Origin: Prochlorococcus sp. AG-402-G19
GTDB lineage: Bacteria; Cyanobacteriota; Cyanobacteriia; PCC-6307; Cyanobiaceae
Length of the DNA stretch: 40,914 nucleotides
NCBI GenBank assembly: GCA_003279455.1
Contig: QCHU01000010.1
Location: 1-40,914 of the forward strand
Direction: 5' to 3'
Shown here piece by piece: positions 23,718 through 35,483 of this stretch. Positions within the stretch are counted from its first letter, which is position 1. Every line of letters begins with the position of its first letter. Both the position numbers and the translations under genes were made by a program. The notes under the pieces are model-generated. The model was not told where the DNA came from. It saw only the letters and a program-made list of their open reading frames with translations, and searched no databases.

Positions 23718-23741
23718 TAAATTAGATAGAAATAAATAACT

Positions 23742-23753
23742 GTAGGTACCTAC
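23742..23753. repeat. Palindrome GTAGGTACCTAC, shared with sir upstream region
   Basis: A perfect 12-base palindrome just before the 51-residue gene. The same ACTGTAGGTACC core (here 23739-23750) occurs, doubled, upstream of sir at 33141-33162. The AGG in it lies nine bases before the ATG, so part of the motif may simply be the ribosome binding site. Confidence 0.4.
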
Positions 23754-23755
23754 GT

Positions 23756-23911
23756 ATGTCCAAAAGACGAAATCTTAAGAAAGAGAAGCAAGAGAGAAAT
23801 CGAGCTTATGCCAGGAAATTTAAGAAACGTAAGCTGCGCAATGATGGTAGAGGAGAAGGTGCAGGTAATGGTGTTACTGGAACTGCAAATAACGGAGGGG
23901 CTGCTGATTAA
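23756..23911 (+). CDS. Small basic protein with glycine-rich tail (51 aa)
   Basis: ATG at 23756 to TAA at 23909. Residues 1-29 are extremely basic (MSKRRNLKKEKQERNRAYAR then KFKKRKLRN); residues 30-51 are Gly/Ala/Asn-rich and neutral (GRGEGAGNGVTGTANNGGAA). The first part probably binds RNA or DNA; the tail is flexible. It follows devA by 38 bases on the same strand. It resembles small basic proteins annotated as hypothetical in marine picocyanobacteria, but I know of no function. Confidence 0.65.
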   Translation: MSKRRNLKKEKQERNRAYARKFKKRKLRNDGRGEGAGNGVTGTANNGGAAD

Positions 23912-30251: not shown

Positions 30252-31058
30252 ATGAAGATTTGTATGAAGGATGAAATTTTTTGTTTATATTTTCTACAAA
30301 TTATGAAGATGAAACCTTGGACTAATTTAAAAATAAATGAATGTAATGAGCCTTTAATTTCTATTCCACAATCTATATTTCGATTAACACCTCATCCTTA
30401 TATGTCTTTAGGTGCTCCATATTTAACTGGCGCGGATCCATGGGTTTTACGTAGTAGTGCTTTGAGAAGATTGATTCAAGCACAACAATATCTTTTCGAG
30501 ATTAATCCTCAATTACAGTTGGCTTTGTTTGATGCTTGGAGGCCTATTTCTGTTCAAAAATTTATGTTTGATTACACCATGCAAGAAATTTGCAGCTCGA
30601 GAGGAATTGATATTAACAAACTCTCTATAAATGTAGACATAACTGATGTGATTGATGAAGTAGGTCGGTTTTGGGCACAACCGTCATCTAATCCCCTTAC
30701 GCCTCCTCCTCATAGTACTGGTGGTGCGATTGATTTGACTCTTGCTGATATGACAGGTAAAACCCTAGATCTTGGAGGGGAAATTGATTTTATTGGGGCT
30801 GAATCAACACCAGATTTTTATAAGAATGACAATTCCAGGATTCCTTGTTCAAAAGATCAAGTTTTTCAATATAGAAGATCTCTTTTATTTACAGTTATGG
30901 AAAAGGCTGGATTTGTTCAACATCCAAACGAATGGTGGCATTTTAGCTATGGAGATCAATTATGGTCTTGGTTAAGTCATAAAGGCAATGCTATTTATGG
31001 AGCTGCACTTGAAGTTAATAAAGACATTACAATTTCAGAACCAAGTTTAGTCACATGA
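30252..31058 (+). CDS. D-alanyl-D-alanine dipeptidase-like (VanX, M15D)
   Basis: The protein shows VanX-family landmarks: LALFDAWRPISVQKF near residue 94, the zinc site PPHSTGGAIDLTLAD near 155 (His and Asp) and the catalytic EWWHFSYGD near 226 (Glu plus His). It would cleave D-Ala-D-Ala or a related dipeptide in peptidoglycan recycling. The N-terminal 17 residues (MKICMKDEIFCLYFLQI) are probably not real; ATG at 30303 or 30309 (MKPWTN) is the better start and gives about 250 residues. Its last 64 bases overlap the sulfite reductase gene on the other strand. Confidence 0.88.
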   Translation: MKICMKDEIFCLYFLQIMKMKPWTNLKINECNEPLISIPQSIFRLTPHPYMSLGAPYLTGADPWVLRSSALRRLIQAQQYLFEINPQLQLALFDAWRPISVQKFMFDYTMQEICSSRGIDINKLSINVDITDVIDEVGRFWAQPSSNPLTPPPHSTGGAIDLTLADMTGKTLDLGGEIDFIGAESTPDFYKNDNSRIPCSKDQVFQYRRSLLFTVMEKAGFVQHPNEWWHFSYGDQLWSWLSHKGNAIYGAALEVNKDITISEPSLVT

Positions 31059-33139
31059 TCTCCAAGACTTGATGATAGGCCAGTATCTTTCCAGTTAAGG
31101 AATAAAGGCTCTAATGTCTTCTCCAATTCATTGATAGGCATTTTTTGTAGATAAGGAGTCGCTAATCTTTGTAAATTAGTACTACCACCAAGCCATAGTT
31201 GGTATTGATTTAAGCCACTACCAACTAGCGCTAATTCTGCCATGTATGGGCGAGCACATCCGTTTGGGCAGCCTGTTACTCTTACTAATATTGATTTGCT
31301 TATCTCTAATCTTTTTAATTGATTGTTTATTCGCTCTAAGAGCTCTGGTAAAAATCTCTCTGCTTCAGTCATCGCAAGTCCACATAATGGTAGGGCTGGA
31401 CAAGCCATTGCATGCCTGGTTATTGGGTCAGGGCTTTCTGGCTTATTAAAACCAATACTAATTAGATCATTATTTACACTAACTTTTTGATAATTACCAA
31501 TATTACACAATAGTAAATCTTGGTTGGGAGTTAAACGTACATCCAATGCATATTTTTCAACTATATTTCTCAACTCTTTCTTTATTTCACCATTAAGCCT
31601 ACCTGATAATAGTGGTAAACCAACAAACCATAATTTCTCAGATTGTCTATTCCAGCCTAGATAATCTTCAAGTTTTACATCCCCTTCATCCCTTAAGTTT
31701 CCAATCTTTTTTGTAAAATATTTCGTTGTTAACTGTTTCTTAAACCAATCGACACCCATGTCATGCAAAACATATTTAAGTCTTGAATGTCTACGCGTTT
31801 TTCTATCTCCATAATCTCTTTGAAGAGCGAGAATAGATTGAACAAGTTCTAATATGTATTGCCCTTCTACAAAACCAATTGGATCTGCTATCCTCGCAAA
31901 TGTTGTATCTAAATTGTGTGTTCTACCCATACCTCCTCCTGCGTAGACATTACATCCTTCTAGTATTCCTTTTGAATTTGTGAACGTCACTAGACCTATA
32001 TCATGAGTAAGGATATCCACAGAGTTATCTCCTGGTACTGTGGTTGCACATTTGAATTTTCTTGGCAAGTAGGTTGCACCATATAAAGGTTCATTTTTAT
32101 CCCCACTAAAAACGCCAGGATTTCTTTGCAGCCTCCTTTTGTTTTTGACTTCAGAAGATGGCTTGATAGCATATTTCATTTCGCCATCAACCCATAAATC
32201 AAGGTATGTTTTCTCGGCTTTTTGGGGCGATAAAATATCTGCAATATCATTGGCTAATTTTCTAGCAGCAGGATAAGATCCTTTTTCGTAGGGTGCCGCT
32301 GGAGCCATTACATTTCTGTTGACGTCTCCACAAGCTGCAAGGGTTGACCCCATCGACTTCACTATCGTTCCTATTACTTCTTTAATATTCCCTTTTTTTA
32401 TTCCATGCATTTGAAAGCATTGCCGAGTAGTAGCTCTAAGCGTTTTATTACCTAGTCGATCAGAGAGATCATCTAAGGCAACAAAAAGTGGACCTGGAAC
32501 TAAACCAGCTGGATTTCTTAGTCTTAGCATCATTTGCCAGTCTTTGCCTGTGCCGCCTCTCTTTCTATGTTCCCGGTCATCTTGTTGATAACTACCGTGA
32601 AATTTTAAAAGTTGTACAGCGTCGTTCGTAAAGTGATCGCTGTCGTTTGATAATTCACTTTGTAGAGGTTCTTGTAAGTAATTACTATCGGCTTTAAATT
32701 GTTCAAATTTCGCTCTAGGAGAATTATTTGCTATGCAGGGAGAAGGAACAGTTTTTTCTATACAAAGATCATTTTTACTTCCATCTTCTTCAAAATTCAT
32801 CAGAGCTTCTATGGCTCCATTACTAAATCCAGCCTCTTTTAAGTCCTTTTCTATGTTTTTGGGAGATTCATTTGTATTACTATTTTTGACAGCCTCTAGT
32901 TTTATTCCCTTTGGTAAGGATTTATTTATCTGTTTTGCCTCTTCTTCTCTGAGCTTTTCATCAAATTTTTGTTGAATAATTATTTCTGCTGAGTTTATGT
33001 TCTCTTCGGCTTCTTTTTTTGTATTACCAATTTTTTTTACTACATCACATGTTCCAAAAGCATCCCTTAATTTGCCTCTCGGTACAGCAACCCTGAGGTA
33101 AAAACCCGATCTTCCAGGTATTTGAATTATCTTAGGCAA
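30995..33139 (-). CDS. sir: Ferredoxin-sulfite reductase with N-terminal extension
   Basis: Residues from about 141 match ferredoxin-sulfite reductase: FEQFKADSNYLQEPL, LLKFHGSYQQDDRE, then the [4Fe-4S]/siroheme cysteines in CPALPLCGLAMTEAER and TGCPNGCARPYMAELALVG. It reduces sulfite to sulfide in the cytoplasm. The 714-residue protein is about 75 residues longer than usual. Residues 1-140 (32720-33139) are extra: RSGFYLRVAVPRGKLRDAFG, then VVKKIGNTKKEAEENINSAE, a pattern of the N-terminal arm (DUF6538-like) of tyrosine recombinases, followed by a charged linker. The frame is open throughout. Start TTG at 33139; no Met lies between residue 114 and the reductase core. Confidence 0.9.
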   Translation of the reverse strand: MPKIIQIPGRSGFYLRVAVPRGKLRDAFGTCDVVKKIGNTKKEAEENINSAEIIIQQKFDEKLREEEAKQINKSLPKGIKLEAVKNSNTNESPKNIEKDLKEAGFSNGAIEALMNFEEDGSKNDLCIEKTVPSPCIANNSPRAKFEQFKADSNYLQEPLQSELSNDSDHFTNDAVQLLKFHGSYQQDDREHRKRGGTGKDWQMMLRLRNPAGLVPGPLFVALDDLSDRLGNKTLRATTRQCFQMHGIKKGNIKEVIGTIVKSMGSTLAACGDVNRNVMAPAAPYEKGSYPAARKLANDIADILSPQKAEKTYLDLWVDGEMKYAIKPSSEVKNKRRLQRNPGVFSGDKNEPLYGATYLPRKFKCATTVPGDNSVDILTHDIGLVTFTNSKGILEGCNVYAGGGMGRTHNLDTTFARIADPIGFVEGQYILELVQSILALQRDYGDRKTRRHSRLKYVLHDMGVDWFKKQLTTKYFTKKIGNLRDEGDVKLEDYLGWNRQSEKLWFVGLPLLSGRLNGEIKKELRNIVEKYALDVRLTPNQDLLLCNIGNYQKVSVNNDLISIGFNKPESPDPITRHAMACPALPLCGLAMTEAERFLPELLERINNQLKRLEISKSILVRVTGCPNGCARPYMAELALVGSGLNQYQLWLGGSTNLQRLATPYLQKMPINELEKTLEPLFLNWKDTGLSSSLGDHVTKLGSEIVMSLLTSSAAP

Positions 33140-33140
33140 T

Positions 33141-33162
33141 GGTACCTACACCGGTACCTACA
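33141..33162 (-). repeat. Tandem GGTACCTACA repeat upstream of sir
   Basis: GGTACCTACA occurs at 33141-33150 and 33153-33162, period 12, directly before the sir TTG. Read on the minus strand it is TGTAGGTACC twice; AGG of the proximal copy serves as ribosome binding site. A single copy of the same motif precedes the gene at 23756. It might be a sulfur- or redox-related operator, or a ribosome binding element. Confidence 0.4.
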
Positions 33163-33320
33163 GTGTATCATTTTCCGTGTTGAGTAGTGCCTAATTGTTC
33201 AAATAAAGCTATTACTGATCAAAGGTCCTATTTATTGAATATTAAATTTTTTCTAGGACACAGAATGTAGAAGTAATTCAGATTTAGATCTAATCTTGTT
33301 AGGAATATAAGGAAATTTTT

Positions 33321-35483
33321 TTGTCTACTTACCTTTTAGAAATCGGCACTGAGGAATTGCCAGCTGATATGGCTGAATCTGTTATTTCTCAGCTTGAATT
33401 AAATGTAAATAATGACTTGAATTCTTATCCAATAAAATTTAGTGAAATAAGAGTTACTACTACTCCTAGAAGAATCACATTAACAATTGAAGGGATTGCT
33501 CCATTTTCGGAGGATAACATTGCAGAACGAAAAGGCCCTCCTTTTTCTCAAGCTTTTCATGATGGTAAACCTACCAAAGCAGCAATTGGTTTTGCTAAAA
33601 GATATGGTTTAGCTCCTGAAAACTTAGAGATTAGAGAAACGCCAAAGGGTTCATTTGTTTTCGCTAATTTAATTGAAAAAGGTAAGCCCGTTGAGAGATT
33701 GTTGGCTGACTCTTTGCCTGGTTGGATCACTAAAATTCAGGGAAGAAGGTTTATGAGATGGGGAAAAGGCGATTTCCGCTTTTCTAGACCTATCCGTTGG
33801 ATTGTTTCTTTGATTGATTCTGAAGTTTTACCTTTTAATCTTTCTGGGTGTGATCCAGAAATTCAAGTTGGCAATATCACAAGACCACATAGGTTACATG
33901 GATCAGAATTAACCATAAAGAATGCGACAACTTATTTTGATCAATTGAAGGATGTCGGAGTCACAGTTGACAGGAATAGTCGTCTTTCACAAATCAATGA
34001 TTTAGTTCTTAATCAAGAAATACTCAAAAAAGTTAAGCCAGATCTGACTGAACCTCTTTTAAAGGAACTTACAGATTTAGTTGAATCTCCTTTACTTGTG
34101 ACTGGGGTTTTTGATGAGTCTTTCCTCGATTTGCCTCCTGAGGTTTTGTCCACTGTGATGAAGGTTCATCAAAGATACATACCAATATATAAAGTAAATG
34201 TTGATTTTGATCCATTGTCACTTGACTCTAGAAACATATTACTTCCTAGCTTCTTTTGTATTAGTAATGGATTATCTTCAGCAAAAGAAAATATTATTTT
34301 AGGAAATGAAAAAGTATTAAAAGCAAGGTTTTCTGATGCTTCGTTTTTTATAAAGTCAGATTTATTAATAAATAGCTCGTCACGTATTAATAAATTAAAA
34401 GATGTAACTTTTGCACAAGGATTAGGTTCTCTATATGAACGTGTGAGTCGTATTAAATGGCTTGCTAAATTATTGACATCACAACTTAAATTCGTTCAAG
34501 AGGATATTGAGAAATCTGTGAAAGTGGCACATTTTTGTAAACATGATTTAGTTAGCAACATGGTTGACGAATTTCCAGAGTTGCAAGGAATTATTGGATC
34601 TAAATACTTACTTCATGAAGGCGAATCCAGAGATGTATGCCTTGGAGTTTTAGAACATTACAAACCCAAAGGAACTTCTGACTCTCTTCCTTCTAATAAT
34701 CTAGGGAATGCGGTTTCATTGGCTGAACGTTTTGAATTGCTTTTCAGCATTTATGCTAAAGGAGAAAGACCTTCTGGATCATCTGATCCATATGCTTTGC
34801 GGAGGGCAGCTAATGGAATTTTGTTGATTTTATGGAATAAAGATTGGCAATTAAATATTAATGAAATACTAAATGATTCACTAATATATTGGAAGCAGAT
34901 TTTTCCTTCTCTCTCTTTTGATATAAATAGTCTTGTGTGTGAACTAAAGGAATTCTTTCGTCAAAGAATAATTAGTTTATTAGAAGAGAAAGATATCGAC
35001 TTTGATATTATTCAGGCAATTTCGGGAGATACAACCTCAACGTCAAAATTATTAGATGATCCAACAGATGTTAATTTTCGTACTTCATTATTAATGGATA
35101 TGCGAAAAAATAATACACTTAATTTGTTGCAAGCTGTAGTATCTAGGGCCTCTAAGTTGGCAGATAAAAGTTCAATCGCTAAAGATGTGATAGATCCTAA
35201 AGGCTTTGTCGACAAGTCATTATTTGAAAAGGATTGTGAAAGTGAAATGTTAAAAATTTTAGAGAAATTAAAACCTTTAGCTACTAATTGTGATCGTTCT
35301 AAATATAAATTATTGGCTGACGGTTTAGTCTCAAGCACTGAAACCTTGGCCAACTTTTTTGATGGAGATGAGAGTGTAATGGTTATGACCGATGATATTA
35401 ATCTAAGAAATAATAGACTTAATCTACTAACAATCCTTCGAAATCAGTCTTTGAAGCTTGCTGATTTTAGCAAGCTTAGTTAA
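33321..35483 (+). CDS. glyS: Glycyl-tRNA synthetase beta subunit
   Basis: The 720-residue protein begins YLLEIGTEELPADMAES, has FMRWGKGDFRFSRPIRWIV near residue 139, LSTVMKVHQRYIPIY near 276 and the C-terminal tRNA-binding domain ending in RLNLLTILRNQSLKLADFSKL. It is the beta subunit of the heterotetrameric enzyme; glyQ is not in the window. TTG start at 33321. Divergent from sir with 181 bases between. Confidence 0.96.
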   Translation: MSTYLLEIGTEELPADMAESVISQLELNVNNDLNSYPIKFSEIRVTTTPRRITLTIEGIAPFSEDNIAERKGPPFSQAFHDGKPTKAAIGFAKRYGLAPENLEIRETPKGSFVFANLIEKGKPVERLLADSLPGWITKIQGRRFMRWGKGDFRFSRPIRWIVSLIDSEVLPFNLSGCDPEIQVGNITRPHRLHGSELTIKNATTYFDQLKDVGVTVDRNSRLSQINDLVLNQEILKKVKPDLTEPLLKELTDLVESPLLVTGVFDESFLDLPPEVLSTVMKVHQRYIPIYKVNVDFDPLSLDSRNILLPSFFCISNGLSSAKENIILGNEKVLKARFSDASFFIKSDLLINSSSRINKLKDVTFAQGLGSLYERVSRIKWLAKLLTSQLKFVQEDIEKSVKVAHFCKHDLVSNMVDEFPELQGIIGSKYLLHEGESRDVCLGVLEHYKPKGTSDSLPSNNLGNAVSLAERFELLFSIYAKGERPSGSSDPYALRRAANGILLILWNKDWQLNINEILNDSLIYWKQIFPSLSFDINSLVCELKEFFRQRIISLLEEKDIDFDIIQAISGDTTSTSKLLDDPTDVNFRTSLLMDMRKNNTLNLLQAVVSRASKLADKSSIAKDVIDPKGFVDKSLFEKDCESEMLKILEKLKPLATNCDRSKYKLLADGLVSSTETLANFFDGDESVMVMTDDINLRNNRLNLLTILRNQSLKLADFSKLS

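Follow-up and report, generated by a model that had tools for sequence, protein, structure and literature searches.

An integrase-derived arm and paired start-site repeats on a picocyanobacterial sulfite reductase, probably forming a self-regulatory unit

Why should a ferredoxin-type sulfite reductase gene (sir) begin with codons that read like the N-terminal arm of a phage-type tyrosine recombinase, and what might such an arm do on a sulfur enzyme? The gene lies on a contig of 40,914 nucleotides (the window) from Prochlorococcus sp. AG-402-G19; its features are collected in Table 1. The initial annotation described residues 1-140 as free of stops and in frame with the sulfite reductase, and the reading frame, its coordinates and the peptides quoted were all found to be correct. 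It also placed the usual start of such enzymes close to the segment FEQFKADSNYL at residue 141, which had to be corrected: the segment begins at residue 145, and the native Sir start is placed at about residue 106-133, because 12 relatives that lack the extension have an open Sir frame of just 18-46 residues ahead of the SPCIAN-like segment, at residue 133 here (27 or fewer in 11 of the 12). From about residue 133 onward the product is an ordinary ferredoxin-type sulfite reductase according to Pfam and NCBIfam; it matched the curated Sir models full length (NF010029, E = 8e-222, 737.6 bits against a cut-off of 457; TIGR02042, E = 3.3e-216, 718.9 bits, slightly below the cut-off of 731.5), and ACPALPLC and GCPNGC in this part are presumably the expected cofactor cysteines. 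The Pfam scan of the 714-aa product gave NIR_SIR and NIR_SIR_ferr and nothing else, the SAM-like core-binding and the catalytic recombinase domains being absent behind the arm.

Table 1. Features of the fused sir locus and of the arm-Rieske genes (positions are those of the window unless a locus is named)
Feature	Position	Strand	Remark
Fused sir, integrase arm + linker + ferredoxin-type sulfite reductase	30995..33139	minus	714 aa, TTG start
Integrase arm domain, DUF6538-like, residues 1-66	32942..33139	minus	homology to tyrosine recombinases
Captured linker, residues 67-118, also integrase-derived	32786..32941	minus	conserved helix IEKDLKxAGFS..AIEAL; BLASTP, hhalign
Sulfite reductase proper, SPCIAN (residue 133) to stop	30995..32743	minus	Pfam, NCBIfam
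Start codon TTG	33137..33139	minus	TTG 29, GTG 2 among 31 distinct sir start regions
Direct repeat 2, TGTAGGTACC (putative operator, arm-type site)	33141..33150	minus	ends 1 base before start codon
Direct repeat 1, TGTAGGTACC (putative operator, arm-type site)	33153..33162	minus	conserved over genus
TGATACACT, resembles extended -10 (TGnTAnnnT)	33162..33170	minus	overlaps first base of repeat 1; genus-conserved
glyS, divergent neighbour	33321..35483	plus	glyS-sir order kept in relatives without extension, 12/12 outgroup loci
Convergent neighbour, presumably vanX	30252..31058	plus	same position in 12/12 outgroup loci
Arm-Rieske genes	L203:1501-2826; L204:1086-2402	plus; minus	two genomes of another genus of the family

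The comparison of sir N-termini across genomes, which the initial annotation had proposed, showed that the extension recurs in the genus: a search with residues 1-140 recovered it in 30 of 41 genus genomes (G016, whose match at E = 0.24 is not a homologue, is left out of this count). It is no assembly accident, because every one of the 17 genus genomes with a completeness of 90% or more carries it, six of them single-contig assemblies (G002-G007). A Sir-related match was obtained in 389 of 400 genomes of the family; among the matches listed, alignment from residue 1-3 was confined to the genus and to G082 (the single sampled genome of its own genus), and the remaining matches start at 114-143, the exceptions being two that start at 96 and 107 and contain an internal stop, and the genus genome G014, in which sir is split across two contigs. 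For the genus genomes without a strong Sir match the best E was 4e-25, except for a partial match in G032 (4e-65). To judge from these searches, the fused Sir is probably the sole Sir of the genome. Twenty-five sir loci were collected, namely 21 complete fused genes (L002-L021 and L024), two relatives without the extension (L022 and L023), and L025 and L026, which are fragments of one genome. The fused sir genes form a single clade on the Sir tree, with G082 as sister to the genus (100/98). The genus members of this clade probably belong to the low-light I group (e.g. NATL2A). On the GlyS tree G082 was not grouped with the genus (84/91, weak), and a lateral exchange of sir later than the capture is therefore possible. 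All 12 outgroup loci that lack the extension have the same order glyS-sir-vanX; thus, the capture happened in place, at the resident sir. Between sir and glyS (33187-33264), a TTTGAACAATTAGGCAC block and, closer to glyS, TCTGTGTCCTAGAAAAAATTT are both largely conserved in the genus and are probably promoter elements of the two genes.

As for the origin of the extension, an integrase arm had initially been seen in residues 1-66. Its homology to tyrosine recombinases was confirmed via intermediates of the same cyanobacterial family, and the captured part proved larger, spanning about residues 1-116/118 with the arm and a linker helix. The direct DUF6538 profile match that had been named as a check for residues 1-140 was not obtained with Pfam, NCBIfam or PHROGs at E <= 10, though HMMER filters remove most matches above about 0.1. 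In BLASTP the extension matched integrase L131 (48% over 62 aa, E = 3e-13) and integrase L140 (29% across residues 1-118, E = 1e-11), and hhalign against the integrase family gave 99.2% (E = 1e-19, residues 1-116) with two shallow alignments (Neff 1.4 and 2.0). Alignment with integrases L131, L136 and L140 holds along the arm and along a second conserved helix. A second, weaker match in the genus genome G006 (43%, E = 8e-8) is a 422-aa tyrosine recombinase (L086) with PF00589 and a sub-threshold DUF6538.

A five-row arm profile gave matches in 54 of the 400 family genomes, 31 being the sir arm and 23 others; with G006, which has both sir arm and integrase, non-sir matches occur in 24. The 31 distinct non-sir loci considered below are the best place in each of the 23 genomes, seven further distinct places and L086 (a second, weak place in G294 is left out, and the second place in G346 is the same stretch as the first). 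PF00589 was matched at 21 of them, three times below its cut-off; the rest are two cut integrases with the SAM-like domain only, two Rieske oxygenases, and six short or broken frames, four of which were scanned for domains. Over the same stretch as the arm, DUF6538 was detected in 15 of the 21 PF00589-matching loci, 14 times below the curated cut-off and once above it (L148, 30.3 bits vs 27). A phylum-wide sample of 292 genomes contained arm matches in four, all inside the same family. The PDB sequence search with the arm profile returned two chance matches only (E = 1.2 and 2.6), tblastn against phage records returned nothing at E 0.1, and viral contigs searched with the arm alignment and two integrases contained no relatives. 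The capture of the sir extension from a mobile-element integrase is well supported by these sequence comparisons. The one exact DNA match, in viral contig L098, was discarded: it is part of an extended tract of GGTGTTGGTGT-like repeats and has the look of low-complexity coding DNA. Note that L131, the nearest integrase to the sir arm (482-1747 of its locus), is divergent from a gene at 1830-2654 that we take to be exonuclease III-like. A shared motif like TCGACCTGRAWAAACC, perhaps the core of an attachment site or part of a promoter, was seen by eye some 60-100 bp ahead of the arm at L086, L128, L129, L130, L132, L134, L136, L143 and L144. ARAGORN found no tRNA there, and the six of these nine loci that were scanned had no Rfam match; the assignment of the TCGACCTG motif upstream of integrases to a tRNA or an Rfam family was rejected accordingly.

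That the domain has been kept, as first supposed, is borne out by purifying selection on the arm, which evolves as slowly as the enzyme part: pooled dN/dS (omega) was 0.060 for residues 3-66, 0.138 for residues 67-113, 0.277 for residues 114-140 and 0.081 for residues 141-714 (406 pairs of 29 genus sequences, the pairs not being independent).

The two repeat copies stand 12 bp apart, directly upstream of the TTG codon. Each copy reads TGTAGGTACC in 29 and TGTTGGTACC in two of 31 distinct sir start regions, a 32nd row from the integrase L131 being left out of the count, and the spacer between them is GG in 21, GC, AG or GT in three each and AT in one. The distance from the repeat to codon 1 is one, two or three bases in 25, five and one of the 31 regions; since such a gap shifts the frame while the DNA stays, it is the DNA and not a peptide that is conserved. 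In the 30 distinct start regions of the genus, the deviation from the majority base per site was 0.0033 in the repeats, 0.15 in the 2-base spacer, 0.17-0.21 in the flank from -60 to -9 and 0.251 at fourfold sites, with 18 of 20 columns invariant in the repeats vs 3 of 165 fourfold sites. G082 has TGTTGGTACC in both copies, though the rest of its intergenic DNA hardly aligns. A leader-peptide reading, in which a ATGATACAG block starts a short Cys-rich peptide, was rejected, the block being absent in G082 and in the integrases and the frame being variable. At five loci (L017, L018, L020, L024 and L080), one extra base sets an ATG upstream of the repeats in frame with sir, so that Sir could start 11 residues earlier there, with the repeats then translated.

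With up to three mismatches allowed, the tandem site occurs once per genome in 30 of the 41 genus genomes, always at sir; no second site was found elsewhere in the 41, the 11 genomes without any are all less than 90% complete, and the reversed-pattern control gave one match overall. A single tandem site per genome argues for self-regulation and against a regulon. At outgroup sir starts without the extension the repeats agreed at 6-8 of 10 positions, with none above 8/10 (12 regions, 130-bp stretch), and glyS starts taken as a control gave 5-7 of 10 (six starts, 50-bp stretch); single GGTACC copies were present upstream of outgroup sir in 2 of 12. Elsewhere in the window, a TGTAGGTACCTACG palindrome with one sir-type unit (23741-23754) stands just before a small basic ORF (ATG at 23757). 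This ORF was rejected as a second Sir-controlled gene, the site not being conserved in 19 relatives.

Repeat pairs at the other arm genes were scored with an empirical window score. A direct repeat pair of about 10 bp, with copies 12-13 bp apart near the start codon, was found at 17 of the 31 non-sir arm genes (p_emp <= 0.015), five of these 17 being mutually close relatives (L132, L134, L162, L165 and L169); the other 14, including L140 with its clear arm and linker relationship, had no significant pair in the tested window. All four sir genes tested had 10/10 repeats (p <= 0.0032), and the start codon was at profile position 1 in these four sir rows and in all 17 positive non-sir genes. Among the 17 non-sir genes with an arm score of at least 80 bits, the pair was present in 13, ending 0-3 bases before the start codon in 11 of them, and was missed at L129 (single copy), L137 (8/10), L140 and L161. 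The repeat units vary from gene to gene (TGGTAGGACC, TGGTCCTGCA, TGGTTGGGAC, GTTGGAACCA and TGTGGGTACC) yet agree inside each pair; in the G006 integrase, TGGTAGGACC occurs twice at the equivalent place. Repeat unit and arm co-varied in a Mantel test (rho 0.27, p 0.005; sir rows included among the 23 whose pair reached 8/10 or better), and did so after near-copies were collapsed (rho 0.37, p 0.011, n = 16). The arm closest to that of sir among these rows, L131 (45%), goes with the sir-like unit TTGTAGGTAC; the co-variation is only moderate, because at L143 a sir-like unit (90%) is paired with an arm far from that of sir (32%).

The same arm type and start repeats were also found on a Rieske/ring-hydroxylase enzyme in a third genus of the family (L135 in G365 and L137 in G384). 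Of the 265 genomes of that genus, two have the fusion, and a further match, in G508, covers residues 106-278 only, without the arm. The two arms are identical at 32 of 59 positions, with synonymous change saturated. The repeat pair is 10/10 at L135 (p 0.0015) and 8/10 at L137 (p 0.13, not significant alone). Because the Rieske arms fall among integrases on the arm tree, apart from those of sir (split 80/100, from a short alignment), the Rieske arm and its repeats are likely to be a capture separate from that of sir, and the joint acquisition of domain and operator probably occurred twice, on unrelated iron enzymes. The neighbours of the arm-Rieske genes (L203 and L204) give, from their ORFs, the impression of surface-polysaccharide or lipid genes.

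The -10-like block beside the repeats has the genus-wide form TGATACAGT and reads TGATACACT in the window. TAnnnT ending on the first repeat base was found in 11 of 18 rows (close relatives included) vs a background of 4.6% per position, and a second TAnnnT peak lies 14 bases further upstream (6 of 16). From the consensus match, we infer that the element at sir is its promoter; were TGATACACT an extended -10, the transcript would begin within the repeats, where a bound protein would obstruct its synthesis. A precedent is available in the integrase IntS of KplE1, which represses its own promoter and whose arm site P'1 overlaps the -10; in that study, repression was not relieved by any one P' mutation, and P'1 was not separable from promoter function in the tests (PMC2951348).

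We propose that the gene of a mobile-element tyrosine recombinase lost everything behind the arm and linker, and that its 5' end was fused in frame to the resident sir, bringing along the -10 region of the promoter, the pair of repeats at the start and the first 116 or so codons. In the integrases, the repeats most likely serve the arm in two ways, as arm-type sites for recombination and as the operator through which the integrase restrains the expression of its own gene. Two Sir molecules side by side would very probably bind the 22-bp tandem site, which overlaps the -10-like element, the predicted transcription start and the start codon of sir, and plentiful Sir protein would then repress sir transcription. 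We consider it fairly probable that one capture brought in both the domain and the operator belonging to it, and that sir thereby became self-repressing. DNA binding by the arm is indirectly suggested by the conserved start-site repeats; that these are arm sites overlapping the sir promoter is suggested by the consensus together with analogy, and analogy likewise points to repression as the presumed direction of the regulation. Sulfite, siroheme or ferredoxin may affect this putative regulation.

The repeats might instead act in RNA. GGTACC in the sir unit is palindromic, and two GGUACC copies could pair as a hairpin over the start codon and control the translation or stability of sir mRNA, with the arm serving otherwise. 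Predicted folding energies were -10.7 kcal/mol for the sir leaders of three genus members and -12.4 for that of G082 (z -2.5 to -5.0). However, of the 14 non-sir leaders that have direct repeats, 11 are about as stable as shuffled sequences (z -0.95 to 0.30; those folding better are L128, -1.9, L169, -2.4, and L143, -3.6), and it is therefore the direct repeat that is the common feature of the set; moreover, the TGT(A/T) half of the sir unit, which lies outside the hairpin stem of genus leaders, is conserved in both copies too. We regard control by such a hairpin as unlikely. A wider role, in which the arm gives Sir nucleoid binding or a part in the transcription of many genes, would recall the plastid sulfite reductase, which binds and compacts DNA and for which the available part of the literature reports repression of transcription (PMC4154389). 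Against it, no second tandem site with up to three mismatches was found in the 41 genus genomes, and the lone single-unit palindrome of the window was not kept in relatives. The arm may bind DNA non-specifically, and we judge the wider role distinctly unlikely; the plastid nucleoid analogy drawn in the initial annotation is not needed, because the evidence singles out a specific site at the sir gene. We know of no such integrase arm in plastid Sir.

Integrases with related arms occur in the genus (L086 of G006) and in the family, and the Sir arm could interfere with or assist mobile elements, for example, by occupying the arm-type sites of such integrases and blocking insertion or excision. 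That is scarcely probable at all: the unit of the co-resident integrase (TGGTAGGACC) differs from the sir unit (60% identity), such an integrase was found in only 1 of 41 genus genomes, and no further sir-type pair was found in the 41. Fusions can also become fixed by drift, and with a -10-like element directly beside the repeats, the extension might be a leader that does no harm or stabilises mildly, with the repeats as a promoter that came along. This passive reading is highly improbable in view of the arm omega of 0.060, the 18 of 20 invariant repeat columns beside a free spacer, and the recurrence of arm and repeats on another enzyme type.

The self-repressing arrangement proposed here resembles several known systems in part. 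As in KplE1 intS and tRNA-associated integrases, insofar as the available text describes them (PMC2951348), an N-terminal arm is combined with putative arm-type sites that would overlap the own promoter, and with predicted self-repression; unlike there, the catalytic part of sir is a sulfite reductase and its sites lie at the start codon, presumably without a role in recombination. In position at the N-terminus and in sequence pattern, the sir arm agrees with the integrases of the family, 15 of 21 of which match the DUF6538 (PF20172) arm domain of phage-type integrases, but it is below detection by the Pfam model and is joined to a metabolic enzyme, the catalytic part being that of a full-length ferredoxin-dependent Sir (TIGR02042/NF010029) in its ordinary genomic place. 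DNA binding, which is predicted here, is reported for plastid Sir/DCP68 in the available text (PMC4154389); that enzyme compacts DNA broadly, whereas the present one is predicted to have a sequence-specific site at one gene. No description of an integrase arm on a sulfite reductase was found in the titles and abstract openings of the literature matches listed, nor any mention of DUF6538 in the literature searched, both with partial journal coverage. PutA and BirA are enzymes that repress their own genes via an added DNA-binding domain. Like them, Sir is predicted to be metabolic enzyme and repressor in one chain; unlike theirs, its domain and operator come from a mobile element and were apparently acquired together.

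More generally, we give about even chances to the view that integrase 5' ends are a portable self-regulation cassette that marine picocyanobacteria have put to use at least twice, each time on a different iron enzyme, with the amount or state of the metalloenzyme setting its own transcription. If this is true, the cassette would be about 350-400 bp long, with a -10 region, a tandem operator, a start codon, an arm and a linker, and the cases would be the sulfite reductase in two genera and the Rieske oxygenase in two genomes of a third. Placed before an unrelated gene, such a cassette would make that gene self-repressing in one step; a dedicated feedback loop would be gained at once, as the DNA-binding domain and the cognate operator arrive together from the mobile element, which avoids the usual difficulty of separately evolving a regulator and its site. 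The start repeats of these integrase genes are predicted to be the binding sites of the arms, in which case the natural arm-repeat pairs would amount to a specificity code. The arrangement could explain how a sulfur-assimilation enzyme is controlled in a streamlined genome with few regulators.
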